Assembly (NCBI RefSeq): GCF_026151205.1
Contig: NC_087073.1
Coordinates: 7,337,001-7,401,000 of the forward strand
DNA from: Bolinopsis microptera
Taxonomy: Eukaryota > Ctenophora > Tentaculata > Lobata > Bolinopsidae
Direction: 5' to 3'
DNA: 64,000 nucleotides
The translations under genes and the position numbers were made by a program. This document shows positions 19,103 through 64,000 of the stretch, in pieces. The first letter of the stretch is position 1, and each line of letters starts with the position of its first letter. Under the pieces are notes generated by a model. The model was not told the origin of the DNA and did not search any database. It saw only the letters and a program-made list of their open reading frames with translations.

Positions 19103-20830
19103 ATGGCAGTGTCTAAGATATCGTTACCAGCAGATTTTGGTATAGAGAACCTGGACTGTCCGGTCCACGGGAACATAGAGATAAAGCTACAAGAGGATCA
19201 GAAGATGAGAGCTAACTCCATGATCCTATCCCTCCATAGTCCGGTGTTTCAGAACATGTTCTTTAACCTGGGCAGAACTTCTATAGACTTGGACGATTTT
19301 AGGGCTGATGTTGTTGGACAGTTTCTAGCGGGTTTGTACGATGGTAAAGTAGAGGTTTACAGGGAAAACTTTAGAGAGATGTACAAGATGGCTGCAGTTT
19401 TTAAGATTGAGTGGTTGATATTGAGATGTGAGCATGTTTTCTGTAAGATAATAAATGATCTTCTTGTGGAGTATAACATGAGGTATACTATTGGTGGTGA
19501 TCCTCTGGCTGATACATTGGGAAGAATGTTGTGGATTTTTGAGGAGGCAATATTTTCTTTGACAGCTTCTAAAAGTTCAGAATTGCTGAATATAACTGCT
19601 GATCTTTTCATTAAAAAGATAAGCTCACAAGGCATTACCCAATTTGTTCAATTCTACTTGTCTGACTTTACCAATCTCTCTGAGGAAAAGCTGGACATTG
19701 CGATAAAGATAACAGGAGAGAATGTAGTCGTCATGTTGCAAACTGTGAGAAATAATATTTGTAATATTACTGAAACAGGGTTGAGCAATAGTTGCAGGTT
19801 CTTGTTAAAGACCATGGACTTGGTGAAGTGTAGACAACAAGAACCTGAGTTATATGAGGAGATATTTGATATCTTGTTGGAAAACATGGACAAAATTTCT
19901 TCTTTGGATGCTAAAATGGTCGCTCAGCTGAACAGACAGACTCTGAAATCTCTCCTGAAATTATCAAATCAGCAAATAATCGATGATCCAGACCCTGGTT
20001 CAGACATATCATACGAAAATATTATCAACCTTTTCCATGGTAAATATTCCATTCAAATTCATGTAAGATGTGTGAAATTAACGGAGTCAATAAAAATTCA
20101 CTCAAAGGTTGCAAGAAAAGTACAAGGCATTCATGCCTGGATCGATGTTATATCGCAAATGAAAGAGGTCAAGAATATGTACATGGTTTTTGAATCTCTA
20201 TTTTATCTTAGCAATTTCATTTTAAAAGAATTTGATGACCAGACGTTAGAAAAATTGGTCTTGTTAAAAGATCGCAGGGGCTTTTCTCGAGTAAATCCAC
20301 AGTTTTTAAATGATCAATTTAGCTGTCATAAGTTACCAAGACTATTGAATTTATTATTAGCATGTCCGGAACTGGTTTCATGTTATGAATCGAGACGAAC
20401 CGTCTCAAAACAGTGGGTTCCTCTTGATGATTTCCTTTCCAAAGAAACTGTTCTTCATTTTCATTTTCCGCATCACCAACGAGAAACTGAGAATTGTTCT
20501 CTACCATCAGACTGCTGTTTCAAATTAAAAATAGCACCCGGAACTATCGAGAATCCGAAGAATTTTAATATACAGCTCATGAAGGACACTTCTCAATCAA
20601 ATCATTCTGAACTTATTTCGGGAAACAAAATTCATCTTGTTGCAGAGAGATATAAACGGTGTGGAAATGATCCCTCAGGTTTTTATCCACTAACTGTGCA
20701 TCTTTCGTATTTTGGAAGACCCTCTCTTACAAACTACGGAAAAACTTTGGCGTGGGGTGTTATAAGAAGTTCATTATCAGGAGATACCTGCGATAGTTTT
20801 GTCAGACTGGTTGCGTATGTTGATATGTGA
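19103..20830 (+). CDS. BTB-BACK domain protein, paralogue 2 (575 aa)
   Basis: A single uninterrupted coding exon. Residues about 20-115 form a BTB/POZ domain, recognisable from the order IEIKLQEDQKMRAN, SMILSLHSPVFQNMFF, a DLDDF strand, then FLAGLYDGKVEV and a terminal helix pair. BTB domains dimerise and often recruit cullin-3 ubiquitin ligases. Residues about 125-240 are helical and match a BACK-like linker. The C-terminal about 270 residues end in a beta-rich segment (VLHFHFPHHQRETENC to RLVAYVDM) for which I know no named domain; in Kelch-type proteins this position binds substrate. The ATG directly follows CCCCAGC, a good splice acceptor, so the 5' leader is probably spliced on. The absence of coding introns contrasts with the neighbouring genes and could reflect an old retrocopy. 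The function of this subfamily is not known to me. Confidence 0.85.
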   Translation: MAVSKISLPADFGIENLDCPVHGNIEIKLQEDQKMRANSMILSLHSPVFQNMFFNLGRTSIDLDDFRADVVGQFLAGLYDGKVEVYRENFREMYKMAAVFKIEWLILRCEHVFCKIINDLLVEYNMRYTIGGDPLADTLGRMLWIFEEAIFSLTASKSSELLNITADLFIKKISSQGITQFVQFYLSDFTNLSEEKLDIAIKITGENVVVMLQTVRNNICNITETGLSNSCRFLLKTMDLVKCRQQEPELYEEIFDILLENMDKISSLDAKMVAQLNRQTLKSLLKLSNQQIIDDPDPGSDISYENIINLFHGKYSIQIHVRCVKLTESIKIHSKVARKVQGIHAWIDVISQMKEVKNMYMVFESLFYLSNFILKEFDDQTLEKLVLLKDRRGFSRVNPQFLNDQFSCHKLPRLLNLLLACPELVSCYESRRTVSKQWVPLDDFLSKETVLHFHFPHHQRETENCSLPSDCCFKLKIAPGTIENPKNFNIQLMKDTSQSNHSELISGNKIHLVAERYKRCGNDPSGFYPLTVHLSYFGRPSLTNYGKTLAWGVIRSSLSGDTCDSFVRLVAYVDM

Positions 20831-21067
20831 TCAATTTCTATTTTCAGACCAATCATGTTGAATGTCACTTTTACTTATAATCTATTGAGTTTTGTTTTGT
20901 TATTTATGTTGTTGACGTAAGATTTTTAAGTCGGAGTTAGGTTTTCCTGATATCATTAATCATTCTCTCCAAAACATCAAAGATGTTCAATGTTAAGCCA
21001 ACTTTTAAAACTTTTTAACCGTTACTCGAACTGTGAACGGGTAATCTAAAATATAAATATCCCCAGC

Positions 21068-22789
21068 ATGGCAGTGTCTAAGATATCGTTACCAGCAGAT
21101 TTTGGTATAGAGAACCTGGACTGTCCTGTACACGGGAACATGGAGATAAAGTTACAAGAGGACCAGAAGATGAGAGCTAACTCCATGATCCTATCCCTCC
21201 ATAGTCCGGTGTTCCAGAACATGTTCTTCAAACTGGGCAGAACTTCTGTAGACTTGGACGATTTTAGGGCTGATGTTGTTGGACAGTTTCTAGCGGGTTT
21301 GTACGATGGTAAAGTAGATGTTTACAGGGACAACTTTAGAGAGATGTACAAGATGGCTACAGTTTTTAAGATTGAGTGGTTGATATTGAGATGTGAGCAT
21401 GTTTTCTGTAAGATAATCAATGATCTTCTTGTGGAATACAACATGAGGTATACTAATGGTGGTGATCCTCTGGCTGATACCCTGGGAAGAATGTCGTGGA
21501 TTTTTGAGGAGGCAATATTTTCTTTGACAGCTTCTAAAAGTTCAGAATTGCTGAATATAACTGCTGATCTTTTCATTAAAAAGATAAGCTCACAAGGCAT
21601 TACCCAATTTGTTCAATTCTACTTATCTGACTTTACCAATCTCTCTGAGGAGAAGCTGGAAATTGCGATAAAGATAACAGGAGAGAATGTAGTCGTCCTG
21701 TTGCAAACTGTGAGGGATAATATTTGTAATATTACTGAAACAGGATTGAGCAATAGTTGCAGGTTCTTGTTAAGGAACATGGACTTGGTGAAATGTAGAC
21801 AACAAGAACCTGAGTTGTATGAGGATATATTTGATATCTTGCTGGAAAACATGGACAACTTCACAGGATCAGATGCCAAAATGGTTGCCCAGCTTAATAG
21901 ACAGACTCTTAAATCTCTATTGGTATTTTCAAATCAGCAAACAGTTGACGATCCAGAAACTGGTTCAGACTTGACCCATGAGAATATTATCAACTTTTTT
22001 CGTAATGATATTGATGAAATCTGTTGTAATGTGATGGAACCGATGCAAATCACTAGGGAATCCAGTGTTGCAAGAAAGGAGGAAGGACTTTGCACGTGGA
22101 TCGATTTTATATCGCAAATGAAAGAGGTGAAGAACATGTACATGGTTTTTGAGGCTCTTTTCACCGTGGAATTTTACGTTTTACAAGAAATTGGCAGTAA
22201 GTCACTTGAAAAGTTGGTTATGCTGAAGGATCGTAGGGGCTTTTCGCGTGTAAATCCTCAATTTTTATTTGACCAATCAAAATTTTTTTATATGACGTCA
22301 CAAAAAGGATTGAACTTGTTGTTCCAATGCCAAGACCTTATCTCATGTCATGAATCGAGAAGAACTGTCGCTATCAAGACTGTACCTATTGGTGATTTTC
22401 TTTTCAAGGAGATTTTTTATCAATTTTCTTTTCCGCATCACCAACCAGAAACTGAAAATTGTGCCCAAACTCGTTGTTATTTTGAACTGAAGATAACTCC
22501 TGAAACTATGGAGAATCCAAATAATTTCAATATCCAACTAGTGGAACGGAATGTTCTGCCAAATCAACACTCTGAATTAGTATCTGCTGAAAAGATTCAT
22601 CTTGTCGTTGAGGTGCTTAACCCCACTTATAATAGTCCCGAAATTATGTACCCTTCATTTATTGGGAGACCCATTGCTGAGTTATATTATCAACATGGGC
22701 GATATTGGAGATGGGGTAATGATATTTATGATAATCGTAATTATGTCCGATTGGTCGCATATGTTGATCAATTTTTGCCAACTTCCTGA
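21068..22789 (+). CDS. BTB-BACK domain protein, paralogue 3 (573 aa)
   Basis: Same architecture as paralogue 2 and nearly identical to it through residue about 265. From about residue 270 the sequence diverges strongly (LTHENIINFFRNDIDEICCN instead of the ISYENIINLFHGK type). It stays alignable with islands such as SQMKEVKNMYMVFEALF and LKDRRGFSRVNPQFL. The C-terminus is distinct (IYDNRNYVRLVAYVDQFLPT) and slightly longer at the end. If the C-terminal half is the ligand- or substrate-binding part, this copy would have a different target with the same BTB module. Its 5' flank (20936-21067) is shared with paralogues 2 and 5, including the CCCCAG acceptor next to ATG. Confidence 0.85.
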   Translation: MAVSKISLPADFGIENLDCPVHGNMEIKLQEDQKMRANSMILSLHSPVFQNMFFKLGRTSVDLDDFRADVVGQFLAGLYDGKVDVYRDNFREMYKMATVFKIEWLILRCEHVFCKIINDLLVEYNMRYTNGGDPLADTLGRMSWIFEEAIFSLTASKSSELLNITADLFIKKISSQGITQFVQFYLSDFTNLSEEKLEIAIKITGENVVVLLQTVRDNICNITETGLSNSCRFLLRNMDLVKCRQQEPELYEDIFDILLENMDNFTGSDAKMVAQLNRQTLKSLLVFSNQQTVDDPETGSDLTHENIINFFRNDIDEICCNVMEPMQITRESSVARKEEGLCTWIDFISQMKEVKNMYMVFEALFTVEFYVLQEIGSKSLEKLVMLKDRRGFSRVNPQFLFDQSKFFYMTSQKGLNLLFQCQDLISCHESRRTVAIKTVPIGDFLFKEIFYQFSFPHHQPETENCAQTRCYFELKITPETMENPNNFNIQLVERNVLPNQHSELVSAEKIHLVVEVLNPTYNSPEIMYPSFIGRPIAELYYQHGRYWRWGNDIYDNRNYVRLVAYVDQFLPTS

Positions 22790-23310
22790 CAATTTGGCAT
22801 TGTGTGACTGTACAAATTGCTTATTTAATTGTTATGAAATTGCTTCATAATAATATAACAAATACTATACCCCGAAAAGCATATTTCAATTTTTAAAGAA
22901 TATTTTTCGCCTGTACTCGATGCGTTGGTATTTTTATTTTTATTTTAAATTAAATATCTGTAATTTTAAGGTATACAGCTTTTGGATCAGACATTGTGTA
23001 TTTTTACATCTTTTACATCCTTTTAAACTTTAAATTCATCCTTTTAGTATTAGTATATATAATAATATGTTTTATAACAGTACAAGTCGAGAGCTCTTTT
23101 TCTGAAATATTGATCCCTTTACCGAGGTTGGTACCGTGGGTGTGACTATATATCCATCTCTGTTACTAACATAGGTTAGCAGCCAAAATACTGCAATGCT
23201 GATTTTTGATACAAATTGTGATACAAATTGCACATGTAACATGCATTATACATATGACTGATTTTGCTGTTTTTTAAACTGTCCATGTAAAACATGTAAT
23301 TATCCTCAGC

Positions 23311-25032
23311 ATGGCAGTGTCTAAGATATCGTTACCAGCAGATTTTGGTATAGAGAACCTGGACTGTCCTGTACACGGGAACATAGAGATAAAGTTACAA
23401 GAGGACCAGAAGATGAGAGCTAACTCCATGATCCTATCCCTCCATAGTCCGGTGTTCCAGAACATGTTCTTTAACCTGGGTAGAACTTCTGTAGACTTGG
23501 ACGATTTTAGGGCTGATGTTGTTGGACAGTTTCTAGCGGGTTTGTACGATGGTAAAGTAGATGTTTACAGGGACAACTTTAGAGAGATGTACAAGATGGC
23601 TACAGTTTTTAAGATTGAGTGGTTGATATTGAGATGTGAGCATGTTTTCTGTAAGATAATCAATGATCTTCTTGTGGAATACAACATGAGGTATACTAAT
23701 GGTGGTGATCCTCTGGCTGATACCCTGGGAAGAATGTCGTGGATTTTTGAGGAGGCAATATTTTCTTTGACAGCTTCTAAAAGTTCAGAATTGCTGAATA
23801 TAACTGCTGATCTTTTCATTAAAAAGATAAGCTCACAAGGCATTACCCAATTTGTTCAATTCTACTTATCTGACTTTACCAATCTCTCTGAGGAGAAGCT
23901 GGAAATTGCGATAAAGATAACAGGAGAGAATGTAGTCGTCCTGTTGCAAACTGTGAGGGATAATATTTGTAATATTACTGAAACAGGATTGAGCAATAGT
24001 TGCAGGTTTTTGTTAAAGACCATGGACTTGGTGAAGTGTAGACAACAAGAACCTGAGTTATATGAGGAGATATTTGATATCTTGTTAGAAAACATGGACA
24101 AACTTTCTTCTTTGGATGCGAAGATGGTCGCTCAGCTGAATAGACAGACTCTGAAATCTCTCCTGAAGTTTTCAAATCATCAAATGATCGATGATCCAGA
24201 CCCTGGTTCAGACATATCATACGAAAATATTATCAACCTTTTCCATGGTAAAAATTCCCTTGACATTCATGCAAGATGTATGAAATTAACGGAGTCAATA
24301 AACATTCGCTCAAAGGTTGCAAGAAAAGTACAAGGCATTCATGCCTGGATCGATGTTATATCGCAAATGAATGAGGTCAAGAATATGTACATGGTTTTTG
24401 AAGCTCTTTCTTATCTTAGAAGTTTCATTTTTAAAGAATTTGATGACCAGGCATTAGAAAAGATGGTCGTGTTAAAAGATCGAAGGGGCTTTTCTCGAGT
24501 GAATCCACAGTTTTTGAATGATCGCTGTCGTGAGTTACCAAGACTATTGAATTTATTATTAGCATGTCCGGAACTGGTTTCATGTTATGAATCGAGAAGG
24601 ACCGTCTCAAGAAAGTGGGTTCCTCTTAATGATTTCCTTTTCAAAGAAACTGTTCTTCATTTTCGTTTTCCGCATTACCAACGAGAAACTGAGAATTGTT
24701 CTCTACCACATTGCTGTTTCATACTAAAAATAGCACCCGGAACTATCGAGAATCCGGAGAATTTTAATATACAGCTTCTGAAGGACACTTCTCAATCAAA
24801 TCATTCGTGCTTACGGCACTCAGAACTTATTTCGGCAAACAAAATTCATCTTGTTGCAGAGAAACATAAACAATGTTTAAATAATCCCTCAGGTTTTTAT
24901 TCAGTGTATCTTTCGTATCTTGGAAGACCTACAAGCTACGGAAAAACTTTGGAGTGGGGTAATATAAGAAGTTCATTATCAGGAGATACCTGTGACAGTT
25001 TTATTAAACTGGTTGCATATGTTGATCTGTGA
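23311..25032 (+). CDS. BTB-BACK domain protein, paralogue 4 (573 aa)
   Basis: Intact and closest to paralogue 1 in its C-terminal half and 3' flank. Within the first 240 residues it matches paralogue 3 instead, even at silent positions (for example the TNGGDPLADTLGRMSWIF stretch). It is therefore a mosaic: 5' half like copy 3, 3' half like copy 1. The 5' flank is not the shared block of copies 2, 3 and 5, but still ends TATCCTCAG directly before CATGG. BTB at about residues 20-115, BACK-like at about 125-240, and the C-terminal beta-rich region ends KLVAYVDL. Confidence 0.85.
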   Translation: MAVSKISLPADFGIENLDCPVHGNIEIKLQEDQKMRANSMILSLHSPVFQNMFFNLGRTSVDLDDFRADVVGQFLAGLYDGKVDVYRDNFREMYKMATVFKIEWLILRCEHVFCKIINDLLVEYNMRYTNGGDPLADTLGRMSWIFEEAIFSLTASKSSELLNITADLFIKKISSQGITQFVQFYLSDFTNLSEEKLEIAIKITGENVVVLLQTVRDNICNITETGLSNSCRFLLKTMDLVKCRQQEPELYEEIFDILLENMDKLSSLDAKMVAQLNRQTLKSLLKFSNHQMIDDPDPGSDISYENIINLFHGKNSLDIHARCMKLTESINIRSKVARKVQGIHAWIDVISQMNEVKNMYMVFEALSYLRSFIFKEFDDQALEKMVVLKDRRGFSRVNPQFLNDRCRELPRLLNLLLACPELVSCYESRRTVSRKWVPLNDFLFKETVLHFRFPHYQRETENCSLPHCCFILKIAPGTIENPENFNIQLLKDTSQSNHSCLRHSELISANKIHLVAEKHKQCLNNPSGFYSVYLSYLGRPTSYGKTLEWGNIRSSLSGDTCDSFIKLVAYVDL

Positions 25033-25450
25033 TCAATTCATAATTCAGAGCATATGACATTTTTGTGCTGGATTGAAATGTTTATATCTATTATTTATAT
25101 AATATTTATTATTTATACATACTTCATAATCAAAATTTTCTGTTTTGTAGTGCCCCTTTGCCGACGCCCTGAAAATTATTTAAAATTCAGTCAGTATATT
25201 TTTCACGGTTGCCTCCTTCATTGGGTTATTGTTTTAAAATTGAATTTACCAATAGTTCATCAGCAACATTTAGAGTTTTTATTTTTAGACAAATCATTTT
25301 TTCAAGATTTTTCATTCGGAGCGAGTTAGGTTTTCCTGATATCATTCATCACTCTCCAAAACAACTAAGATTTACAATGGCCAACTTTTTAAACTTTTCA
25401 ACCGTTGCTCGAACTGTGAACGGGTAATCTAACATGTAAATATCCCCAGC

Positions 25451-26275
25451 ATGGCAGTGTCTAAGATATCGTTACCAGCAGATTTTGGTATAGAGAACCT
25501 GGACTGTCCTGTACACGGGAACATAGAGATAAAGCTACAAGAGGACCAGAAGATGAGAGCTAACTCCATGATCCTATCCCTCCATAGTCCGGTGTTCCAG
25601 AACATGTTCTTCAAACTGGGCAGAACTTCTGTTGACTTTAAAATTTTCACCGCTGATGTTGTTCGACAGTTTTTTGCCGGTCTGTACAGCGGTAAAGTGG
25701 ACATCCAGAAAGGAAACTTCCGAGAGTTTCACAATTTAGCGGCTGTGTTCAAGATTGAGTGGCTTCAACTCAGGTGCCACCTTGCTTTCATGAAAATCAT
25801 CAAGAGTTTCCTGGTGAAGAACGCAGATAGGAATGAAGAGGACACCCTCTCCGACGAGATGGAGGAAATGAAGTGGATTCTTGATGAGGCTATATTTGCA
25901 AAGAAGGTTATGAAAATCTCGAAGCTGTTTGAGGTAACCTGTGATGTGTTCGTAGTTAAAGTTGTTGATAGAACACCATTTATCAAATACTACCTGTCTG
26001 ATTTTGCAAAAGTCTCCACTGACCAACTCGATATTTCGATCAAGATTGCTGGAGACAATGTTAAGGTTTTGATGGAGATATTGAAAGATAGCATGATTGA
26101 CGTGTCGATCAGTGGACTTGGCAAGAATTCAACATATCTTTTGGGAAATATCGATCTCGGTAAATGTAGGGAGCTTGAACCTGATCTTTATAAGCAAATA
26201 TTCAACAAACTCATGCAAAAAAAGGAAACGCTGGTATCGAAAACAGCGGAGCTGAAAACGGCACAGAGTGGTTAA
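25451..26275 (+). CDS. Short divergent BTB-BACK protein, paralogue 5 (274 aa)
   Basis: The first about 58 residues are identical or nearly so to the other copies. After SVDFKIFTADVV the protein diverges sharply (about 35-45% identity by eye) while keeping the BTB-BACK frame: FFAGLYSGKVDIQKGNF, then FKIEWLQLRCHLAFMKIIKS, then a BACK-like part with LSDFAKVSTDQLDISIKIAG. The protein stops at residue 274 (AELKTAQSG), so it lacks the C-terminal region of copies 1-4. The GC content of its divergent part is visibly higher. It probably keeps BTB self-association without the C-terminal region and could act as a competitor of the longer copies. That is inference. Confidence 0.8.
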   Translation: MAVSKISLPADFGIENLDCPVHGNIEIKLQEDQKMRANSMILSLHSPVFQNMFFKLGRTSVDFKIFTADVVRQFFAGLYSGKVDIQKGNFREFHNLAAVFKIEWLQLRCHLAFMKIIKSFLVKNADRNEEDTLSDEMEEMKWILDEAIFAKKVMKISKLFEVTCDVFVVKVVDRTPFIKYYLSDFAKVSTDQLDISIKIAGDNVKVLMEILKDSMIDVSISGLGKNSTYLLGNIDLGKCRELEPDLYKQIFNKLMQKKETLVSKTAELKTAQSG

Positions 26276-30100: not shown

Positions 30101-33100
30101 TAAAAGCAGTGGGAAAATCTGATGAACGGAAATTTAAAAAAGAAACTGAAAGCCGTTAAAAATATACTCTTATCTTACCTCATATCTAAATACTGATAAC
30201 TGATTCTCGGAAAATCACTTAAAATCACAAAAAAAACCTGTAAAATTTATATTAAAGTAAAAAAAATTTTACGCACGTCTCTGGAATATTGGTATAACTA
30301 AGTAAAATCTACAAATACAAAAACTAAAACTAAGCTCCGGCAGACTTAAAAAGTATATGGTTAGTGGTTACTATCAAGGGTGTTCATACCCTCAAACCTT
30401 TCTAGGGTTTTCAATTGGGTTTGGTAGAACCCCTCTCTAGCTTCCATAGCCTTTTCTTTGTCTGATTTACTAACATTGGGCTTAAATACTAAAGAGCTAA
30501 AGCGTCTACTATAATGACAGAAAGGTGTTTACTAAGTGAGGAATTATAGGCGGCTATGGTACTAAAATCTAAACCATGATCAATATCTAAAAAATGATTA
30601 ACTAATTTACAACTTCATATACCTTTCTTTATGTATATAAATATAATAATATATATACAACTGGTTTTCTTCTCTTATATATATATATATATATATATAT
30701 GCTTGTATTACTATTATAATAGAATAACAATAATTCAGAGATCATCTGCCAAGCGGTTCAAGCACACCAAAATTTTATACTACGACCGACTGTAATTAAA
30801 TTGAAAAGTGAGATCAAAATATAAATCTATCTTAGTATGTAAGTTTGTTTTCTTGACGATATTACAGCAAGCTTTATTCAATTTAAATTCAACAAAGGGA
30901 TCTTAGAGAATAGAGCCTTGAGGAATACCATAATTGATCGTCTTGGGACTGGAATCAACCCCGTTGACATCAGTTCGTCACAGTCAACGGGGTTGATTCC
31001 AGTCCCAAGACGATCAATTATGGTATTCCTCAAGGCTCTATTCTGGGCCCCCTACTCTTCGTCATCTATATAAACGACCTCCCCGGAATCTCAGACCTGG
31101 CCAAGTTCATACTTTACGCCGATGATGCAAATATTATAGTCACGGGCCATAACGAGGAAGAAATTCAAAATAAGCTCTCCATGATTGCAACACTTCTAGT
31201 GAATTGGGTAAGTAGCAACGGGCTTTCTTTAAACCTGAAGAAGACCCACTATATGGTCTTCAGTAACCGTAAAGTAGATTATTCCAAAATAAGTCTCAAC
31301 ATATCTGGAACAAACATTGAACGGGTTACTGAGGCACGGTTTCTGGGTGTTATAATTGATGAGAAACTAACATGGTGTAAACATATCACAGCGGTAAGAT
31401 TAAAAATGAGTAGGTACATAGGCATCATGTTCAAATTAAAACGACATCTGCCCCTAAAAGTGCGACTACAACTCTACCATAGTTTTATTGAGGCACATGT
31501 TAACTACTGCTCGTTAGCCTGGGGATTCGCGGCAAAATGTCACATTGAGACATTATTCCGTAGACAAAAGCAAGGAATGCGGATGGTTATGCCAGGATAT
31601 GTAAATTACTTTTACAAAGACGGCAAATTGCCAGCTCACACCAGAGAAGCATTCTGCAAATTTGAGATTTTGACAATACACGGCATCATCGTAAAGAATG
31701 CGCTTACATTAATGCACCGCATGAAGCACTTTCCCAACACAGTACCTGTATCAATTAGAAATTTGTTTCCAGATAACATACCCACGCATGGTTCAAATCA
31801 TGAGAACAGTAGCGAATGGCTAGATACGTACAATAACCGATGTTTCAAAGCATCCATCTTTTTTAAAGGACCTTTACTAGCTCTAACAGACACCAACAAG
31901 AACATCACGTCCCTACCTAGCTTATTTTCAATAAATATTTACAAATCGAACGCAAAACGCGTGCTTCTTGAGCAACAGTCAACACTAGCTAACTCAGAGG
32001 ACAGCTGGCCAGCATTTCTGCTACACAACGTACCTGGTTTGAGGAAGTCCAATAGATGAGGGATGATTGAGTAATACAGCGACCAATAATCGCTAAATCA
32101 TGACATCATATCATAACATAACATAACATAGGACGACAGCAAACACACAATAAACGAGCAGTAATAAACAACGTTCGCTTAATGGACTGACATATTTCAG
32201 CATATTTTTCACTGCCAAAGCGCTGATAACAGCAAGCCTTACCCCACTCCGCGCGGATTTTTAATGCACTAAATCTTAAAGATAATTCTCGCGATAAAAA
32301 TTTTCATCGTCACGCTTGAAAATTTCTAGAAATTAGAATAGCCGTATATTATAACAAACTATAGCAAGCAGAATTAAAAGATAAAAGGTTCTGGGACTTG
32401 AGTGGTACAAATAAAATGAAAGGCATGCTAATCATGCTCACGTACTGTAATGTGTCGAGAGTTTTTTTAATTTTTACTATTTGACAAAATAATTGATCTT
32501 TTTAGTGTGAGTGTGATTTCAACTTTGAGTTTGAAAATATTTTGAAACGACTTTCGATATTATTGATTATTATATTTAATAAACTGTCTCAAAGCCCTTA
32601 GAGGTGGCTCTATACGGGTCTTTACAACATCTAGCGGCAGAGTAATGAACAGTACAGAACACGACAAATTACAAACCAACAAATGGTTCTACCCAATATT
32701 AAACTTAAGTGCAGTAGAAGTCACTGTTGAGGTAGAATCACATGATTGCATATATGATAAAGTAATAATGAAAGTAACCGAGGTTATGTGTCCAGGAAAT
32801 TAATAAGGAAATAACTCTGAATAGCAAAAAGTGTGCCGACATTGGCCATGTCTGAGCACAATATTATAAGATGACTAGATAATAGATTGAAACAATGAAA
32901 CATGGTCGGCACGGCACCGACGGCTACTTCATTAAAACACCACAAACAGTTGATCAGTTCTGCTGATACAAGCCTGTGATAGTCAATACATACCCAATCG
33001 AGTAATGAGTATGTTAGCACTTCAGTGGTTCATATAACTCAGTGCAGTTGTGCAACAGACTTATATTTACCCAGTTTGTTTCAGTACTGCTGGATATAGA

Positions 33101-36537: not shown

Positions 36538-37380
36538 TTATGGGACAGAGTTATTATTAGCATTACGGTTGATGTTGCGCTCTGATTTCCTTAGTCCCGT
36601 TATATTGTATAACATAAAGTTAGGCCATTCGTCTGCAATGCCCTCGTTTTGTTGATCAATGAGCATGTTTTTTATGCACCTTTTGTAGATGTTAAGGTTG
36701 AATAGACTTGGCAAGGAAGTTGCTGCGACACTATATCTGTTTATTGCTAATAGTGGACCTTTGTAGAATACTGAATTGTTGTAAGGGTGTTTACCGTATT
36801 CATCTGACCATAAAGTTGTAAGACTCGAATCCGGATCGGCGACGTTAAATATTGGTGCACTGTTAGGTATTGTTTTCTTTATAGAGGGAGGCACTAGACT
36901 TGGGAAGTTTTTCAGCTTATGTATAAAAACTAATGCGTTCTTTACGATGATACTATGAACTGTCAATATTTTGTGTACATAGAAACCAGACTTGGTACTT
37001 GCTGGTGGTGTACCATCTTTGTACCAGTAATTAACAAAACCTGGTAGTATTGCTCTAAGACCCATTTTCTGTTTAACAAATAGTGTTTCTATATGGGATT
37101 TGGCAGCAAAACCCCAGACGAGGGAGCAGTAATTAAGGTGAGACTGCACAAAGCTGTGATATATTTGTAAACGTGCTTCCAGAGGCAAATATTTTTTAAG
37201 TTTGTACATGACTCCAATGTATCTGGCCATTTTCATTTTCATGGCAGAAATATGTTGCGACCAGTTCAGTATGTTATCTATTATAACACCTAAGAAACGG
37301 GCTTCTGTTTTTCTTTCGATTGTGACACCAGAAATTACTACATCGCGATAAATGAGGTTTCTTTGTCGAGAAAAGATCAT
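36538..37380 (-). mobile_element. Second 5'-truncated LINE, minus strand
   Basis: A 280-residue open frame matches the C-terminal part of the LINE at 31181-32059: RFLGVIIDNILNWSQHISAM versus RFLGVIIDEKLTWCKHITAV, then HSFVQSHLNYCSLVWGFAAK and IIVKNALVFIHKLKNFP. YADD and everything 5' are absent, consistent with abortive reverse transcription. Identity to the first copy is about 55-60% by eye, so they are separate subfamilies rather than recent copies. The frame is still open, suggesting moderate age. A short duplication, AAAAGATCATATAAAC, lies at its 5' junction (37372-37407). Confidence 0.85.
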
Positions 37381-37419
37381 ATAAACTAAAAAAGATCATA
37401 TAAACAATATATATATTGA

Positions 37420-56100: not shown

Positions 56101-59100
56101 TTGTCTCCTTCAGTTGTCTCCTTCATTTGTCTCCTTCAGTTGTCTCCTTCAGTTGTCTCCTTCAGTTGTCTCCTTTACTTATATTGTAATACTATCAACA
56201 CTTATTATAGTTAATACATATAAAAAATGATATGTGGTAGGTTTACATTAATTTAGAACTACATTTGTATTAACTTAACCTAAACTTCTTAATCCACACA
56301 TTACTCAATCGATTGAATAAACTTTGGATGGGCTATTTTGGTGATAGTGAGTGATCTCCAGGGTTAAATTTACAGATTAACAACTTTGCAGCTATTCCAA
56401 ACCGATCAAGTGGTCATGTTTGTCCGTTACGTTCTTCCGGTCATTTTCTAACGGTTTGCTCACACCCTGATTCCAAACAGGAAGGATTAAAACGCAAGTT
56501 AAGGCCAGAGGGGGGGGGGGGGGTAAAAATTGTTTTTACAGTTTTCACATATTTGATCAGAGCTGCTGGAGATGAACAAGTAGAAAAAAACTGCATGAAA
56601 ATCTGACCTTGCGTTGCTGAGATATTGCGTGCCAAAATTTGAGGTTTACCTTGAAATATGAGGTTAACTTTAATTTGAGGTTAAGTTAACCTCATATTTC
56701 AAGAACAGAGGCAAATATCAAAATTCAGGTCCTGAGTGTGGCCAGTCTTTTCCAAAAGTTGAGCTCTATCTGGAAAAAAGATATTAAGAGTCAAAGACAA
56801 AGTTTTAATTACAAGTAAACCTCAAATTTTGGCGCGCAATATCTCAGCAACGCAAGGTCAGATTTTTATGCGTTTTTTTTTCTACTTGTTCATCTCCAGC
56901 AGCTCGATCACATATGTGAAAACTGGAAAATGATAATTTACCCCCCCCCCCCCCCCTCTGTCCTTAATCAAAGAGCGAGTCTTTGAATTCCGATGTGTCA
57001 TCGGTTATCTAGACTTAAATAAAATGTCATTTAAAAAAGCTAGGCAGGTTAAACTCCTGTCTGGTCCTTGGCATGTTAAAACATTCCGTTACTTAACCTG
57101 TGTGCGTTTTAAATCGGATGTTCTAAAATAGGAATTATGACGTGGGCGTGGCTGTTCGAAGGAGAGAGATCTCAAAGTAAGTGCCGAAAAACAAAAAGAA
57201 AGATATAATAGCACTCATCACAGTTTAAATGATAAAGGTGAACTAGATAATACAGTTTTGAGTTACATTGTGCTGGAACACATTTCTGTTCTGAAGCCAA
57301 TTTTCTCTCTTTGATGGACACATTGAGTTTAGATCTTTGAAGATTTAGTTAGAGCTGCTTATTGAAGTAAGTGATGACAAATGATGATTGGTGAGTGCCG
57401 TTCAGTTAGAGCCAACGGATTGAGTATGTGGTATCCAGCAACTAAAAACATTGGAATGCTACTTCTCGCAATATCATGAGGCCTAGGTGTTCAGGTATTG
57501 TCTTTATAGCCATGTTTCAGCATACTTTTGGCACAGGAATTCATCTAAATGCCAACATTTATCCACACGTACAGCTTTTTTCGGGGCTTTGCTAAGTATT
57601 ACAGAAAGATGTCCGCAGATAATGCAGTGCTGTCTGTATTGATGATCATGTTTTTAGGTTCATTGTTTCTTCCTGTCTCATTCTATCGCTATGGTCACCC
57701 CCCCCCCCTGAACGTAGTGTTTCTTATAGGTCGTGTTGTGCAGACAATTGTATCTGGTTTTTCCTCCTACATAACATGTAGTATATAATATCATGTACTA
57801 GTTCAAAATTCAGAGAAAAGAAAATGTCCGGGCCGACTTATAGTAACACGGAAATTATGAGAAATGTTGAAGTTTAAACATCACAACAATGCGACTCATA
57901 ATGATGTTCCTATCCGGATATTACACTAAATCCATCGACAAGTTACATTATCTAGATCTGACGGCATTATTTGATCACTACGGTGGCATTATATCTGCAT
58001 TTTATCGCACATGTATTGTGGCAGGAGTTAAATTTAATTTAGTGTCGAGATAGTCCCTGTAATATTGATGCAATAAAGTTAAATGTCATCCGTTGTAGAT
58101 TCGAATGCTAGCTCGACGCTATCTTTTGTTAAGTTATATAAATATAATATCGGTGTAATAAAATATAAAATTTGGTAAGTTATATAATATCACTGTAATA
58201 AAACATAACCTTCATGTTGTGTTATAGTACACCACTGTTAGTACTGCTCAGTACGTGTGTAATCATCCATGTATGGCAAGACTTTATTTTAATCTCAGAA
58301 GTGAGCAAGCAGATAGTTCTCTGTGTATGTGACACGTGTTTAGCACGTGTGAGCCACGTGTTTAACACGTGTTTAGCACGTGACACGTGGTACGTGTTAG
58401 CTGTTACTGGGCTACATGAGGATTTTATTTTGAAGGGTGTGGTCATATGTCCTCTGGTTATTTGTTTGATTGTATCACGGACAAACTTTAAGTTGATGAT
58501 TCAGGGTGTAGACTTTCTTAGCAGCCTGATGAGTTGGTGCGTGTGCGAGGTAATGTTGTTTCGTAATAATATCACGATTAAACTTACGATATCGACTAAG
58601 TCCCTGCCTCTACCATGTTGCCAAATACCACTAAATGTTATTACCACTGTGATTAATGATTAAATAAATTACCTTTATTTACACTACAATAAATAATGAA
58701 AAGCTCGCCTGCAGACGTTAAGTAACTGTGAACGGATCAGTGACGAGGGACTGCGGTATCTGTGCGGCAGTTACGCGGGACAGACACAACTACGGGAACT
58801 GGAACTGGACAACTGTAAGCTGATAACGGACGCTACCATCGACCATCTTGTGTGAGTACATTCCTCTTCAACTGTGTGTTAGTCATTGTGCAGTTTCTAA
58901 TACTTCACAGTTCACAGTTCTGTCAGTTACTGTGTAGTTTCTAATACTTCACAGCTCCCGTTTAAATACCTTGCACTAGATCTGACATGATAGTAGATAG
59001 TTAACGTGTCACAACTGTTCAAGTTAATCATTGAACATGTCTCTCACAGTTCTCATGTCTGTTCTCTTGCCTCTCTTTATTAAATCAAACTCCCGAATAT

Positions 59101-60711
59101 CATGCATAATATCTCCGCTATCTCAATATGACATGAATCTGTAAGATACACCTGTTCAATACTACATTTTACTCTATTAAAACAAGTTTACTCTATCATA
59201 TGCAACACAGAGTACACTGTACCGTATTACTATCAGAAGCATAATTCATTTTGGCACAAGGTGGCCGGGATATGAGCTGTTTAGAACTAATCTAAGATTG
59301 TTCTTGTGTTTTGATCACGTGTGTAAAGTCAACTTGTATTATCACAGTGTGTGTACTGTGTGTGTGTACTGTGTGTGTAGTACATTCGGGGGATTAATAA
59401 GGTTATTGATGTCTCGAAGTATACATTTGATGAAATACTCTTGAGGCTAACTATAAATGTAATCTAACTGACCTTGATATATTTAATGGAACAGCTAACT
59501 AAATCTCTACGAATGTAATCCTCTGTTCGCGGTACCATGTGTATTATAATACTATAATACCTCCGCCACTGAGTGCTGCGCGATATAATTCCCGACAGCT
59601 TGCTGGAGGGAATTTGCGGGCACGAAGTTGCGGAGGTATTATATTTTATAATACGTTCCGGTTCCGATTGCAGAAGGGGTGTAATCCGATACGTGCGCAT
59701 CATACAATATAGTGTCTAATATATAGAACGCCAGTGTTATTTGTTTTGAAACTTGCCGCCAGCCAGTCTGAGTCTGGGCTGATAATACCCTCGCTTCTCT
59801 TGCGGGAAAAATGAGCAAATTATCAGCCCTCGGTGTCCCCGAGTTTTAGTGGATATAATTCCCGGAAGGTATTATAATCGAAAAGTTAGAGTGGGTTAAT
59901 TTCGTGCAAATAAACTGGGTTTATTGAACGAAGCCGTCCAATTTCACCTAGATTAACACTAATTATTGGGACCAAGTCCCTTCATTTGGCCCGACTGCAG
60001 GATCCAGCAGCATCTTTGAGATATTGACCTTTATTAACATGTCCAGTCTAGCCACTGCTCACTTTAAAGCTATATAGTATTCAGCTTAGTAGTGCAGATT
60101 GTTTGTCACTACATATTATTTGTGTAGAGCTCCCTTCTTCCCCCCCCCCCCCCCACCTGTTGTAGTTTATTGTTATTACTGGCCCTCAATATTACCCCTC
60201 TTGTCTGATCAACATTACAGTGTACAGTGTGCAGTGTGCAGTTTGTGCTAGTTTTTAAGTTATGTCGGTATGGTCTATTAAAGGATAATTTACTCTTACC
60301 CAAGTTAATTGAACGGGTTCACAGTTCTGATAAAATAAATAATATCAGATATTCGTAAAGAGGCTGTAACAAGGCTGTATTTCTTCTCTAACTAAGAGAA
60401 TCAACGAATCTTAATACATAACCAAGGAATCTCCGAAGGATCTTTAAAATTGGACTTTCTTCATGGATTTCTAAAAGCCCTCAAGTTAAGAACATTCCTC
60501 ACATCTCATTAACACCCCCCTCAGGCAATGCAGAGGGCTCCAGAGGGTAGACCTGTACGACTGTCTCCGGATCTCGCGCGGCGGGATTAAGCACCTCAAG
60601 TCACGGCGTCCCAACCTCACGGTGCACGTGTACTTCCCCCCAGACACGCCGCCCGTCATGCAGCACGATCCCGTCCATAACCGGGTGTGTAGATGTTGTG
60701 TGGTCTTGTGA
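39858..60711 (+). CDS. FBXL20: F-box/leucine-rich repeat protein, FBXL2/FBXL20 type, 458 aa
   Basis: Fourteen exons join in phase: 39858-39924, 40063-40165, 40422-40551, 40701-40795, 44297-44365, 46200-46295, 48098-48224, 49049-49120, 50371-50501, 50833-50893, 53918-53962 (or its duplicate 54845-54889), 55901-55957, 58715-58851 and 60525-60711. Residues about 45-95 form the F-box (IHTRLPDAVILKIFWYLDII, then SLCRCAKVSQKWKALALDGS), which binds Skp1 in an SCF ubiquitin ligase. Residues about 105-425 are cysteine-type LRRs (HYIEVLNLNGCTNIS, LQHLDLSWCALVS, LRELELDNCKLITD) that select substrates. The protein ends CRCCVVL; the last four residues, CVVL, form a CaaX box whose Leu favours geranylgeranylation, as known for FBXL2 (CVIL), implying membrane attachment. 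Length is close to vertebrate FBXL20 (436). The N-terminal exon (MELVSTGRQDSNG) is the least conserved and least certain. FBXL2 and FBXL20 cannot be told apart here. Confidence 0.9.
40974..41329. mobile_element. 356-bp MITE in FBXL20 intron 4
   Basis: The termini AGGCCCCATGTAGCC and GGCTACATGGGGCCT are perfect 15-bp inverted repeats. TTTTGTT flanks both sides (40967-40973 and 41330-41336) as a 7-bp target duplication. The interior has two direct copies of AGCCGGTGGGCCCGACATGA, then TCGACACGTC, each followed by TCGGGGTTTG repeats (about eight units on the left, two on the right). A long T tract (41167-41194) separates the two copies. Length and ends suggest a hAT-like non-autonomous element. 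Confidence 0.8.
41330..44296 (+). other. Rest of FBXL20 intron 4
   Basis: No second gene is seen. It contains CT-rich tracts (42556-42580, 43338-43358), a 29-bp GAGGCGAGGCCGAGTGGTAA minisatellite at 42893-43033 and an AATT run at 43866-43882. A 93-codon ORF at 43475-43756 has no recognisable domain. Confidence 0.5.
42893..43033. repeat. Minisatellite, GAGGCGAGGCCGAGTGGTAAG unit
   Basis: About five to six imperfect units of about 29 bp (GGCTGTAGTGAGGCGAGGCC, then GAGTGGTAA), with some units shortened. It is GC-rich compared with the surrounding intron. Confidence 0.75.
44391..45285. repeat. 47-bp minisatellite, about 19 copies, in FBXL20 intron 5
   Basis: The unit is CCAATGCAATGCAGTGCAGT, then TAAAGTTTACTAAGGAGGTG, then CCCCTCC. 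The first units are shorter (lacking one GCAGT) and the internal ones are nearly identical, so the array has been homogenised recently. Single-base variants (GTGTCCC, GCACCT, GCGGTG) recur in several units, giving an apparent higher-order pattern. Confidence 0.9.
45286..46199 (+). other. Remainder of FBXL20 intron 5
   Basis: No gene or repeat recognised apart from ordinary AT-rich sequence, ending in the TATTTTCAG acceptor of exon 6. Confidence 0.5.
46425..46485. repeat. CTGTCTCAGGTAGATATAT short tandem repeat
   Basis: About four units of 19 bp in FBXL20 intron 6. Confidence 0.8.
46520..47480 (+). mobile_element. LINE C-terminal fragment split by a MITE
   Basis: The left part encodes ILTVFKCVNNIAPDY and the right part ITKCMDIRSQSV. 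Together they resemble the conserved C-terminus of non-LTR reverse transcriptases (the FK-LN-LAPxYL...RSQ signature). The reading frame is restored exactly if the inserted element and one TA are removed. It is a degraded remnant; the catalytic part is absent. Confidence 0.55.
46586..47438. mobile_element. 853-bp MITE with TA target duplication
   Basis: The inverted termini CCTTAGTTCCCAAAAATTTG and CAAATTTTTGGGAATTAAGG (one mismatch) are bounded by TA on both sides (46584-46585 and 47439-47440), as in Tc1/mariner-type elements. Subterminal copies of AAATTTGGGC occur in both orientations. No transposase is seen. It sits inside the LINE fragment. Confidence 0.75.
47740..47965. repeat. 226-bp near-perfect palindrome
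   Basis: The left arm starts GTAGTGTTCAGTAGGGAGCA and the right arm is its complement ending TGCTCCCTGCCGCACACTAC, with a centre near 47852. Inside, GGCAAATGACTAGTGAAAAC pairs with GTTTTCACCAGTCATTTGCC, and CGACTTTTCGG with CCGAAACGTCG. It is a foldback element or MITE without coding capacity, in FBXL20 intron 6. As single-strand DNA or RNA it would form one long hairpin. Confidence 0.75.
48020..48085. repeat. Short direct duplication just before FBXL20 exon 7
   Basis: AGTGCCTAAAGTAAGAGATA occurs twice (about 48020 and 48059) immediately upstream of the exon 7 acceptor at 48097. It may affect the branch-point region of this intron. Confidence 0.7.
49121..50370 (+). other. FBXL20 intron 8
   Basis: Includes a TTATTTTATTTTATGCTA repeat at 49174-49215. 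A 99-codon ORF at 49955-50254 shows no recognisable domain. No gene seen. Confidence 0.45.
51731..52275. repeat. 33-bp minisatellite with an E-box in many units
   Basis: About 17 copies of CACCTGCACGTGACTATATC, then ACCCACAGTACCA; some units carry a 10-bp insert (CGTCCCACAG) or lack two bases. Most units contain CACGTG or the near-palindrome ACGTGA. ORFs through the array in both directions (51835-52029, 51863-52327) are repeat read-through because the unit is a multiple of three. Confidence 0.9.
52797..52900. repeat. ACACATGTGACC minisatellite
   Basis: Around eight units of 12 to 13 bp (CACACATGTGACCACACATG). Each unit is itself palindromic at ACATGT. In FBXL20 intron 10. Confidence 0.85.
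53125..53150. repeat. (TG)n microsatellite
   Basis: Thirteen consecutive TG dinucleotides within FBXL20 intron 10. Confidence 0.9.
53752..53975 (+). repeat. Exon-containing segmental duplication, copy 1
   Basis: This 224-bp block contains 166 bp of intron, the 45-nt FBXL20 exon 11 (53918-53962, GCNSLEKMDLEECQS) and the donor GTGAGTGTGTGTA. It is identical to 54671-54902 except for an 8-bp insertion (AAGTGTGG-type) in the second copy. Sequence on either side differs between the copies. Confidence 0.9.
54671..54902 (+). repeat. Exon-containing segmental duplication, copy 2
   Basis: The second copy (232 bp) has an intact acceptor (ATCCCGCAG), the same 45-nt exon (54845-54889) and the same donor. 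Both exons are phase 0-0 and could be spliced alternatively; including both would add 15 residues to one LRR. Confidence 0.9.
56079..56175. repeat. TTGTCTCCTTCAG tandem repeat
   Basis: About eight units of 13 bp (GTTGTCTCCTTCA), nearly perfect, pyrimidine-rich, within FBXL20 intron 12. Confidence 0.9.
56503..56963. mobile_element. 461-bp inverted-repeat element flanked by TTAA
   Basis: The left end GGCCAGAG plus a run of 14 G and the right end of about 16 C plus TCTGTCC are inverted repeats. They continue inward for about 145 bp (TGCTGGAGATGAACAAGTAG pairs with CTACTTGTTCATCTCCAGCA). TTAA lies at both borders (56499-56502 and 56964-56967), the target-site signature of piggyBac-type elements. 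A second inner inverted pair (AAATATGAGGTTAACTT and its complement) occupies the middle. There is no coding capacity. Assignment to piggyBac rests only on TTAA. Confidence 0.7.
58332..58400. repeat. Cluster of CACGTG sites
   Basis: About seven ACACGTG or CACGTG motifs in 70 bp (GACACGTGTTTAGCACGTGT and neighbours), an irregular repeat. CACGTG is the E-box core bound by bHLH-Zip factors, but a simple repeat origin is equally possible. Confidence 0.6.
58852..60524 (+). other. FBXL20 intron 13
   Basis: Contains an inverted pair at 59541-59655 (ATAATACCTCCGC and GCGGAGGTATTAT) around a GC-richer core, with a related phrase near 59850-59880. This is probably a small degraded foldback element. A C run of about 15 lies at 60139-60154. 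No gene seen. Confidence 0.45.
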
Positions 60712-62246
60712 TCTCACATCCTCACACGTGACCAACACGTGGTCTATCTGTCCTGTCACGTGATAGCAGGAGAGATATCATGACACACCCAATCCCCCCT
60801 TCCTCCCGCTTCAGTCGTCGAACTGGAAAGTTTCAAGCAGCAGACTGCAGCTACACGCGACTCTAAAAACACGGCTGCAGAATGACTAAATTAAACGAGA
60901 GATAATTGAGAGATAATTGAGTAATTATGTAATTATAGGAGGCGGGACCCTCATTAGTTTAATATGGCGTGGCTGGGTTTACTAAACGAAAAATAGACTG
61001 ATTGATGCATCATCAATTTTGATATTAGTTTCGTTAAAATATTTGTTTATTACGAAAATTAGATTATTTATTATTGGAGGGGTATGCTGATCATTTAATA
61101 AAATTCTTTCGAAACCGCCGAGAAAATATTTATTTGACCGTAAATTCTGATAGGTGAGCCTTTTGCCTTTTGGTTACGGTTTCGAGATGCTAAACAAAAA
61201 AAAGAGCAAATCTGTGCAAATTTGTGGCGTGTTTTATCTGTGTGGCGCATTTGATTAAATGCTGTGCCCTGACCGCAACTCGAAAAGAAATGTAAACTGC
61301 AGGCACGCACCTGAACTAACTTGTATTTTTCACTTATTATTAATTTAACCAAATTTTATAGATTTGTGTATACTTTCTTAGTTGATTTTGAGTAACGTGT
61401 TGCGTACGGTATATAGAGTTTCATTCTCCTTGAGAAGCCATCTTCGAGATTAAAGGAACTGTTTTGCGTTAAACGTCGAAGACGATCGATCACGAGGTGA
61501 ACCGAAATCATCTCACTTTATGGAACGCGCGAGCAATATTTCAAAATAAAAAGTATTAAGTCTCTATTGCCATATTATGGTCCGGTTGCGCGCATGCACG
61601 CGAGTACATACGTATGTGTTTTTAGTGTTGTTATGTATTAATCGTACATGTACTTGCAAGGTGATAATTATAAAGCTGCAAACTCAATTTCTAGACAATT
61701 AAGGTGGACTGTACTAGCCTAATACAAGCACTCATATTGGTCACAACAGTTGGCTAATCAGTAAAAAGGTGCGTAACATATCATTAATTAAATAAAATTA
61801 CTTACTTAAGGTTACTTTATTAAACATAACTAAAGTACGATTCAACTAGAAATTTGTACATCATTTACAAAACGTGGTGTTAGGAGAAGGTGAATGAGAG
61901 AGAGGCAGATAAGATCAAATCTTGTGATAACGATCAGTTCATAGACTTATGTGTTCTCAATTTCATTTTCTCCAAAAATAAGGCGGACGGCACCAGCATT
62001 TAAAGCACTCACATTGGTCAGAACATGTAGAGTTCTGACATGTTCAGTAAACATGTAGGTGTGAAATACTTAACATAACATTAACATTAACTAAAGAATA
62101 GCAAATTTCACTAAATTACGACTCATAAAATATAAATTTAAATACACAGCTCATTTCGACAAGCTGTCTATCACTGGGAAATGAAAATGTTATATGATTT
62201 CAATCGACCAAATATTGGCCGGTAATACTTATCAATAAAAATTCCA
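60712..62246. other. Convergent intergenic region between FBXL20 and the channel gene
   Basis: It follows the FBXL20 stop with three further CACGTG sites (60735-60765). AATAAA at 61547 is a candidate FBXL20 poly(A) signal but is distant. Two diverged direct copies of a segment with AAGCACTCAYATTGGTCA lie at about 61700-61800 and 61978-62095. No gene recognised. Confidence 0.45.
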
Positions 62247-63929
62247 TCATAAACGTGTATTGTCCATTTGCATATCATCTGATGTATTTATAGTCCTTCT
62301 CGGAGTTAATTTACGTGCAGTTTTTGTAAAAATCCACTCTATAAATTGATAGCATGTGAAAAATGAGAGCCCGATAAATAGATCTGTTAATCCTCCTAAT
62401 TCGGCTGAAATATTGAGTGGTTAAAAATAACAAATATGGCACCTAAAAAGATGTTAGCAGAATTGTGCTTGTTCAAAGAAATCAGCTAAATTCTAAAACC
62501 AACCTTAGGCTTAGGCCAGCAGACTACAGAGTAAGTCAATATTTATTAATCACTTGTAACTATTTGTGATGCTAAAACCATACATCTTTTCAGCCAGATA
62601 AGATTGCATTTTAATGTTGGACCTTTTCTGATTCTTGAACAGTTAAGGGTAAATGAGAAATGCTAACAATCGTGTAACTTCATGATTTTACTTACCTATA
62701 AAGCTGGCTATCTCGTAGCTAGCTGTTTGTACTACCTCTATTTTCGTCATCTGGTCCGTATAAAACACTAACTTTACCAAGTTTTTCTTAGCGTCTTCGA
62801 AATTATCGTATCTTGACTTAACCTAAAGTAAATAATAGTTTCAGACACTGTCAACATAACGTTACTTGATGAAAAGCACCAACTGCAACATTAGACGAGA
62901 AAAAAGCATTATTGCTGACATGGTTAATGAATATAGATTAAAGACGATAGTAGTAATAGTCAGCATTATACAGTCAAACGTTAACAAGGCATATCTGTGA
63001 AAGTAATGAAGTGTAAATGTTTACTGAATCCAGTTGACTGAGATAGGTTTCCCAGTATCTCTTAGCGGGATATTCACTGAACGAGAAATCGTATTCGTAT
63101 TGTCTGTAGTTACAGGGTTCATGGCATGTGGGAGGAGATGTAGACTTCTCAGTAGTGCTTTCTTTATCGTCCGTGCTATTCATCAAGACATCTGTGAGGA
63201 AATAATATGGGATCCATTACAAAATGTAGTCATTCTAGTCTACAAACTTTATCTTGTATACTTTATTTAAAGGAGAATGGAAGATCCCAATTAATTTGCA
63301 ATTCAGTAATTCTTTTACAAGTTTTTAGAATTCAACTTACTCGTTATTTTATTCTGACAGGAAGTCTCGGCTGAGATAGTGCATTCCTCCATTTCCAAGC
63401 ACTTTACACTACCCCACTGTAAACCTTTCCAATCGACACCGTTTTCTATTTCTTCTATTGCTGCTGTTTTCTTGTACAGCCAGCATTCGTTTTCACTCAT
63501 GATATCTGAAAACAAAATATTTTTTCACAATTAAAGAAACTCCTGGGTTCTATAGTCTGGTATTCTTTACCAATTCGTATAAATCGGTTGTCAGTGGGTG
63601 GAGCTTTTTTAAGCTTCTTATATTTCACGAGGCAGCAAGCCAGATGTATATGAAGTAAGTATATATGCAAGCTATGTATGAAGTATATGTATTATTTAAT
63701 TCAAATTCATAACCGCTCGTCTTTGTTTTGTTTAATTCTGAAAATATCAGTGATTATACAGTGTATATACAGTTACACTGACCGTTAGTCAGACCACTGT
63801 ACTGGAAATATAGACAGTCCACAGTATTGTCGCACAGATCCGCACAATCCTTTACTGACTTCAGATCTGTATTGGTGGAGATCCGATCAGTCGTCACGTT
63901 GTAACCTGTATCCTCGTAGTAACATGTCT
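62247..63929 (-). CDS. DEG/ENaC/ASIC-family sodium channel with a PAN/apple-like extracellular domain (3' part)
   Basis: Five phase-matched exons (63929-63783, 63505-63341, 63191-63025, 62822-62696, 62404-62247) encode the last about 254 residues; the 5' part lies beyond the window. The first two exons form a PAN/apple-like module: TCYYEDTGYNV, SVKDCADLCDNTVDCLYFQY, ENECWLYKKTA, LQWGSVKC. Then comes the DEG/ENaC signature CHEPCNYRQYEYDFSFSEYP, the beta strand before TM2 (NLVKLVFYTDQ), YEIASFIAELGG and TM2 (LTDLFIGLSFFTCYQFIEWI). Within TM2, GLS matches the G/S-X-S selectivity filter. The cytoplasmic tail is short and basic (KTARKLTPRR) and ends MDNTRL with TGA. Family members are trimeric, amiloride-sensitive cation channels gated by acid, peptides or force. 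A PAN module in the extracellular domain is not part of the usual architecture. It is convergent with FBXL20. Confidence 0.88.
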
Positions 63930-64000
63930 CTGAAGAAAACACATGATATTAGAGGACATTCTCTCATGTCACAGTTTTATAAAGAAGACAAAGTAAGTGC

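Follow-up and report, generated by a model that had tools for sequence, protein, structure and literature searches.

Ctenophore DEG/ENaC channels predicted to carry a PAN/apple module in the thumb domain

Judged from its sequence, the genome of the ctenophore Bolinopsis microptera almost certainly encodes a small DEG/ENaC subfamily in which a PAN/apple module is inserted in the α4–α5 loop of the thumb. Four PAN-bearing channel genes were found, one of them frame-broken (L009), together with one degenerate copy (L024). The gene that is described most fully here lies at the right end of the stretch of DNA that was analyzed, a window of 64,000 nucleotides (G000:C2:7337001-7401000), and the assembly searched for relatives comprises 264.65 Mb in 232 contigs. 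A glutamate receptor encoded in this assembly (L018) has Mnemiopsis ML032222a as its best PDB match (E = 6.8e-122), with 77 identities among the 103 residues of the first aligned block, which makes Mnemiopsis leidyi an improbable source. An initial annotation of the window had proposed a DEG/ENaC channel with a PAN/apple-like domain in its extracellular region, and this reading holds as far as sequence can test it. PAN/apple modules in other settings bind proteins or glycans. The best explanation overall, in which we place slightly more belief than doubt, is that the thumb-inserted apple module binds an extracellular partner and controls the channel.

The joined model of the window gene comprises 12 exons on the minus strand that encode 596 residues in one frame (Table 1), with AG before every exon and GT after each of the first 11. 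The five exons that had been assigned within the window join in phase, with positions right to the base, GT...AG introns and an open frame, and the claimed order of apple-type cysteines, CxxPC motif (CHEPC), pre-TM2 strand, TM2 with GLS and short tail is present in full. The gene runs beyond the right edge of the window. Extension of the contig past position 64000, which had been put forward as a check, added seven more exons, including TM1 and a short piece before TM1; the exons downstream of the TM1 exon that lie beyond the window edge encode extracellular domain. The extension locus (L001, G000:C2:7398501-7408500) is letter-for-letter identical to the window over 61501-64000. The in-frame donor that joins exon 7 to exon 8 was located by comparison with the PAN-bearing paralogue L004 and checked in the joined model, and continuation of exon 7 in its own frame was ruled out because it meets a stop. 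The channel body from TM1 to TM2 is complete in this model, which lacks only the exon with the start codon; this 5′ exon was not found.

Table 1. Features of the PAN-bearing channel gene. Positions are those of the window; those above 64000 are extended coordinates past its right edge.
Feature	Position	Strand	Evidence
Exon 1: short pre-TM1 piece	66187-66122 (extended)	-	L001 joined model
Exon 2: TM1	66013-65874 (extended)	-	L001 joined model
Exon 3	65722-65628 (extended)	-	L001 joined model
Exon 4	65317-65154 (extended)	-	L001 joined model
Exon 5	65060-64772 (extended)	-	L001 joined model
Exon 6	64522-64424 (extended)	-	L001 joined model
Exon 7	64216-64042 (extended)	-	L001 joined model
Part of intron 7/8	63930-64000	-	L001 joined model
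Exon 8: predicted PAN/apple first half (Cys 1-4, C-x25-C-x3-C-x5-C-LYFQY)	63783-63929	-	In-frame AG/GT exon with flanking phase-1 introns; Cys spacing; PAN profile
Exon 9: predicted PAN/apple second half (Cys 5, 6), then thumb helix α5 segment (ECTISAETSCQNKIT)	63341-63505	-	In-frame AG/GT exon with flanking phase-1 introns; PAN profile; boundaries matched in L025
Exon 10: thumb end, CHEPC (family CxxPC), next palm strand	63025-63191	-	In-frame AG/GT exon; phase-1 intron at entry
Exon 11: palm strand/wrist before TM2 (VKSRYDNFEDAKKNLVKLVFYTDQ...)	62696-62822	-	In-frame AG/GT exon; alignable to paralogues
Exon 12: pre-TM2 end, TM2 with G-L-S filter (FIGLSFFT), short cytoplasmic tail, stop codon	62247-62404	-	AG acceptor, joined model; ASC match

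Elsewhere in the window, inspection by eye revealed a tandem array of large BTB-like open frames of about 540-585 residues, the last of them shorter (16993-26272, plus strand), LINE-type reverse-transcriptase-like open frames (30968-32056, plus strand, and 36541-37395, minus strand) and leucine-rich-repeat exons that resemble the F-box proteins FBXL2/FBXL20 and end in CVVL (58700-60711, plus strand). The FBXL-like gene is positioned tail to tail with the channel gene.

Membership of the window gene in the DEG/ENaC family is supported by the Pfam ASC profile (PF00858), which matches the joined protein with E = 1.3e-46 and 160 bits against a cut-off of 23.6. Two membrane helices, TM1 and TM2, surround a large extracellular domain in one frame (the helices were placed by alignment, without a topology program), and the CxxPC motif (CHEPC) and the GxS filter (FIGLSFFT) are both present, with CxEPC common to all five paralogues aligned. 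A His-Gly pair N-terminal to TM1 is common in ASIC and ENaC and is not taken here as defining for the whole DEG/ENaC family. In this respect the window gene differs from ASIC1, since it lacks the pair and carries FKDISNNYLAEV at that place before TM1. The pair is absent also from two PAN-bearing paralogues (L025 and L004) and from the ordinary paralogues L003, L007, L013, L022, and L029, and it is retained before TM1 in L005, L011, L014, and L023. Because ordinary ctenophore paralogues likewise lack His-Gly, we read its absence as a lineage feature and not as grounds for exclusion from the family.

The insert between CGCYPWY and CHEPC contains eight cysteines that are invariant in all four copies (L009 being read across its frame break), of which six stand in PAN order and two belong to the thumb helix α5 region. 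The apple pattern is C1..C2-x3-C3-x5-C4..C5..C6, and it is present in every insert, save that in L025 x6 replaces x5 before Cys 4. Spacing was measured in three of the four copies and is 25-3-5-17-27 in the window gene. An N-glycosylation sequon occurs shortly before Cys 1 in all four copies; in the window gene it is NQT, directly before Cys 1, and is completed across the exon 7/8 junction.

Note that single-sequence Pfam scores for the insert are borderline. With PAN_1 (cut-off 21.4 bits), the window insert alone scores 23.0 bits (E = 7.3e-5), over the cut-off, and the whole window protein 21.0 bits (E = 3e-4), just below it. Thus, of the profile searches of the joined protein that had been suggested as a check, ASC succeeded and PAN_1 did so only when the insert was scanned by itself. 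The inserts of L025 (21.3), L004 (19.7), and L009 (18.6) and the whole L004 protein (14.7) all remain below the PAN_1 cut-off, and just one insert in four clears it in a scan by itself. PAN_4 (cut-off 27 bits) was under its cut-off wherever it matched, and no match was listed for L025.

Profiles built from the inserts themselves gave clearer results. A search of 177,635 distinct PDB sequences with the four-insert profile returned 16 matches at E <= 10, all of them PAN/apple chains, with a best E of 9.5e-9, and the three-insert profile likewise found 16 distinct sequences up to E = 10, with a best E of 1.4e-8. The proteins matched are factor XI, plasma kallikrein, microneme proteins 4, 5, and L2, and a Kelch-annotated protein; the three rows named 'Kelch domain-containing protein' among the 16 are presumed by us to be PAN-bearing. 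Two column-shuffled insert profiles, one with the invariant Cys columns fixed, yielded zero PDB matches up to E = 10, which rules out a chance cysteine pattern. In a single profile-profile comparison, the insert matched PAN repeats of the same genome with 74.8% probability (E = 2.6e-5, 13% identity, 48 columns). At the level of sequence we consider it confirmed that the insert of the window gene is a six-cysteine PAN/apple domain encoded by exons 8 and 9. Factor XI, plasma kallikrein, and coccidian microneme proteins share the profile match and the six-cysteine pattern with the insert; however, they are secreted or adhesive proteins, whereas the module described here lies within a single domain of a channel protein.

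PAN sequences are plentiful elsewhere in the genome, with at least 150 matches scored per search (PAN_1; PAN_4). One open frame of 5,916 residues (G000:C9:1857479-1875013, minus strand) carries dozens of tandem PAN_1 matches among the matches listed. At G000:C1:17906358-17922499 (minus strand), 31 PAN_4 matches among the matches listed have near-equal scores and lie mostly about 465 bases apart; as far as these profile matches can tell, this series consists of near-identical PAN exons arrayed in tandem. The PAN exon pair of the window gene and that of L025 have phase-1 introns on both borders, and of four other PAN exon loci in the genome, two (L032 and L034) have phase-1 borders on both sides at motif level and two (L031 and L033) could not be resolved. 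With no transcripts and two of the four loci resolved, these borders are suggestive only of an origin of the module by exon shuffling.

A genome search with the thumb segment of the window gene gave 13 matches, 11 of which fall in the four insert-bearing loci (the window gene counted); the other two are weak (E = 0.15 and 5.3) and outside the PAN part. A search with L004 as the query added the degenerate copy L024. L004 (C7:19287501-19291000) encodes TM1, PAN, CxEPC, and TM2 within one uninterrupted frame of 595 residues, the first Met of which falls within TM1; the 5′ exon of L004 is therefore missing as well. L025 (C8:3072501-3079500) is represented by a 13-exon model in which the PAN exons have the three phase-1 boundaries of the window gene, and L009 (C2:13404501-13408800) is a PAN channel relative with its frame break within the PAN segment. 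L024 (C7:20044701-20047500) shares 87.5% DNA identity with L004 in an alignment that has 97 gap openings, and it contains many stops; its sequence suggests a duplicate of that gene that has either degenerated or been poorly assembled. The four main copies are not haplotype duplicates of one gene, a possibility ruled out by their low pairwise identity: the window gene is 44-78% identical to L025 per tblastn piece and 37% identical to L004 overall, and L004 and L009 share 54-60% in their three longest pieces.

When the inserted loop was excised, a tree of 16 proteins and 418 columns placed the four PAN channels apart from the twelve others with support of 98.2/95. This topology fits a single PAN insertion in a common ancestor of the four copies, as inferred from a tree in which four of the 16 sequences had been pieced together from more than one frame and which did not include L005, L006, L008, L011, L012, and L014, loci that were retrieved but not assembled. 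The Pfam search of the genome gave 47 DEG/ENaC matches, a lower bound given that it missed the L025 gene. We also observed DEG/ENaC pairs near the end of contig C7 (G000:C7:18874184-18875587, minus strand; 19996200-19997603, 19287980-19289764, and 20045228-20046964, plus strand), of which two copies have nearly equal ASC scores and the other two are an intact gene and its degenerate partner, an arrangement that suggests unmerged haplotypes or recent duplication with poor sequence.

The position of the insert within the channel was determined by comparison with ASIC1. A profile of six ctenophore channels, with the window gene first, matched ASIC1 (PDB 6ave and relatives) with E = 1.1e-44, covering TM1, the palm and β-ball strands, the end of α4, α5, CxxPC, and TM2 with its GxS filter. 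L004 alone produced a looser form of the gap described below (295 to 343). With the six-channel profile, the match ends at ASIC1 residue 324 (CNC after helix α4) and restarts at 336 (before α5), where α4 and α5 are the names that we take to apply to these thumb positions. As judged from these alignments, the apple insert takes the place of the short α4–α5 loop of the thumb: ASIC1 has an 11-residue loop there (325-335), whereas the window gene has about 130 residues including the apple module.

FaNaC structures (PDB 7yvb and 8on7) represent the same family body with a GxS filter, and the filter of FaNaC1 is GIS (PMC11026163), as it is in paralogue L004. The same source places the peptide pocket of FaNaC1 in the finger region, in contrast to the predicted location of the ctenophore apple module in the thumb. 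Ordinary ctenophore DEG/ENaC paralogues (such as L002, L003, L022, L028, L029, and L030) resemble the PAN channels in having a long thumb loop, which spans 65-212 residues between CxC and CxxPC in 11 of the 12 tree members without PAN (the second motif of L023 was not detected by the script). However, these loops are mostly low-complexity linkers instead of an apple module, several of them acidic or basic, and no PAN match up to E = 10 was found in the four non-PAN paralogues scanned (L002, L003, L022, and the main open frame of L013). Among the thumb loops of L002, L003, L022, and L030 (CxC to CxEPC), several contain basic clusters (such as RRRRD and RQKRE) reminiscent of protease sites, which might be the thumb equivalent of the cleavage that activates ENaC.

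It could be argued that the PAN exons are part of a different gene or that the insert is merely an ordinary cysteine-rich thumb, outcomes that the initial annotation had named as grounds for its refutation. The near-cut-off PAN_1 score of the whole protein (21.0 versus 21.4 bits) and the lack of transcripts leave some room for this argument. Nevertheless, the whole order of L004 lies in one frame, where the fusion of PAN module and channel cannot be a product of splicing, and L025 repeats the exon structure; together these two genes rule out a splicing artefact and make it unlikely, even without transcripts, that the PAN exons come from elsewhere. Neither is the region an ordinary thumb, since it scores as PAN (with insert profiles that match only PAN/apple chains and shuffles that match nothing) and is extra sequence for which ASIC1 has no counterpart. 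The argument is largely refuted, and we regard it as highly improbable.

An extracellular binding role for the apple module is likely, although this is an inference made without ligand data. Direct control of gating through the thumb is likewise inferred, with no current data, and here we find belief and doubt evenly balanced. We propose that a PAN channel would assemble as a trimer in which each of the three thumbs bears an apple module on its outer side, that each module would bind an extracellular protein or glycan, and that occupancy of the module, or pull on its partner, would shift α5 and the thumb such that the pore opens, closes, or is biased. In one report (PMC11026163), α5 of FaNaC1 moves about 3 Å inward and 2 Å upward on ligand binding, and ASIC1 gating is described as drawing the thumb toward the finger. 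Because the module is attached just before this moving helix, it could pass ligand binding or pull to the gate. We count a role for the module as supported by the retention of six PAN cysteines in all four copies and by the sequon near Cys 1. Against it count the frame break in the PAN segment of L009 together with the degenerate L024, and the fact that only one insert in four, and not the whole window protein, clears the PAN_1 cut-off. In addition, conservation between the window gene and L025 is near its lowest in the PAN exons (47% and 44% identity by tblastn, versus 46-78% for other pieces), which would also fit weakly constrained decoration, and the thumb loop is generally permissive in this lineage.

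Such decoration would be structural or would serve trafficking: a disulfide-stapled, glycosylated insert in a tolerant loop, passive, binding no ligand and taking no direct part in gating. The poor conservation of the insert and the long, in several cases low-complexity, thumb loops of other ctenophore channels both lend themselves to this account, which we consider unlikely without dismissing it, because the six PAN cysteines persist in every copy and in two lineages (the two spliced genes and the L004/L009 pair), the sequon stays beside Cys 1, and the neighboring α5 cysteines are retained as well. Apple modules can also pair, as in the factor XI dimer. PAN channels might accordingly serve in regulation and not in ligand sensing, as subunits whose apple-apple contacts bring about assembly or clustering with other DEG/ENaC subunits or secreted PAN proteins, and a genome rich in PAN matches, with its 5,916-residue frame containing dozens, would offer partners. 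However, no such contact has been shown, TM2 and the GxS filter are present, and no feature that we saw marks a non-conducting subunit, so that this arrangement seems quite improbable to us.

Returning to the favored explanation of a partner-binding, channel-controlling module, the many PAN matches and the 5,916-residue frame make PAN-PAN contact one inferred option for the channel partner. In a more specific form, which we offer only tentatively, the thumb apple would dock on a secreted partner (perhaps one of the giant PAN-repeat proteins of this animal) or on a glycan, and binding or pull would gate the channel directly. If true, this would be an ion channel with an extracellular tether built into its own chain. 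The idea that an extracellular matrix link gates the channel is shared with MEC-4-type degenerins and N-glycan-tethered ENaC; in those models (PMC10148893, PMC7958617), the link is proposed to be a matrix protein distinct from the channel or an N-glycan, whereas here a folded module would lie in the channel chain.

No description of a DEG/ENaC channel with a PAN/apple domain was found in the open-access literature searched, which does not show its absence from print; a paper on plasminogen that did match looks unrelated. Two phylogenetic studies that include ctenophore channels make no mention of a PAN/apple domain in the portions that were available: the word 'apple' does not occur in the main text of the second, and 'pan' in the first is apparently 'panel'. 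The channel and the apple module are each known, and it is their union in the thumb that appears not to have been described.

Extracellular tethers of DEG/ENaC mechanosensors have long been proposed and are poorly known in molecular terms, according to a published account (PMC7958617). A known protein- or glycan-binding module in the channel's own thumb would open the tether idea to simple deletion and swap tests. That the thumb loop beside the gating helix can take up a whole domain, as predicted here, bears on how ligand sensing has evolved in the DEG/ENaC family. PAN channels also bear on the sensory repertoire of ctenophores, and the PAN family suggests that these animals may possess channels whose opening, tuning, or anchoring depends on an unidentified extracellular factor.
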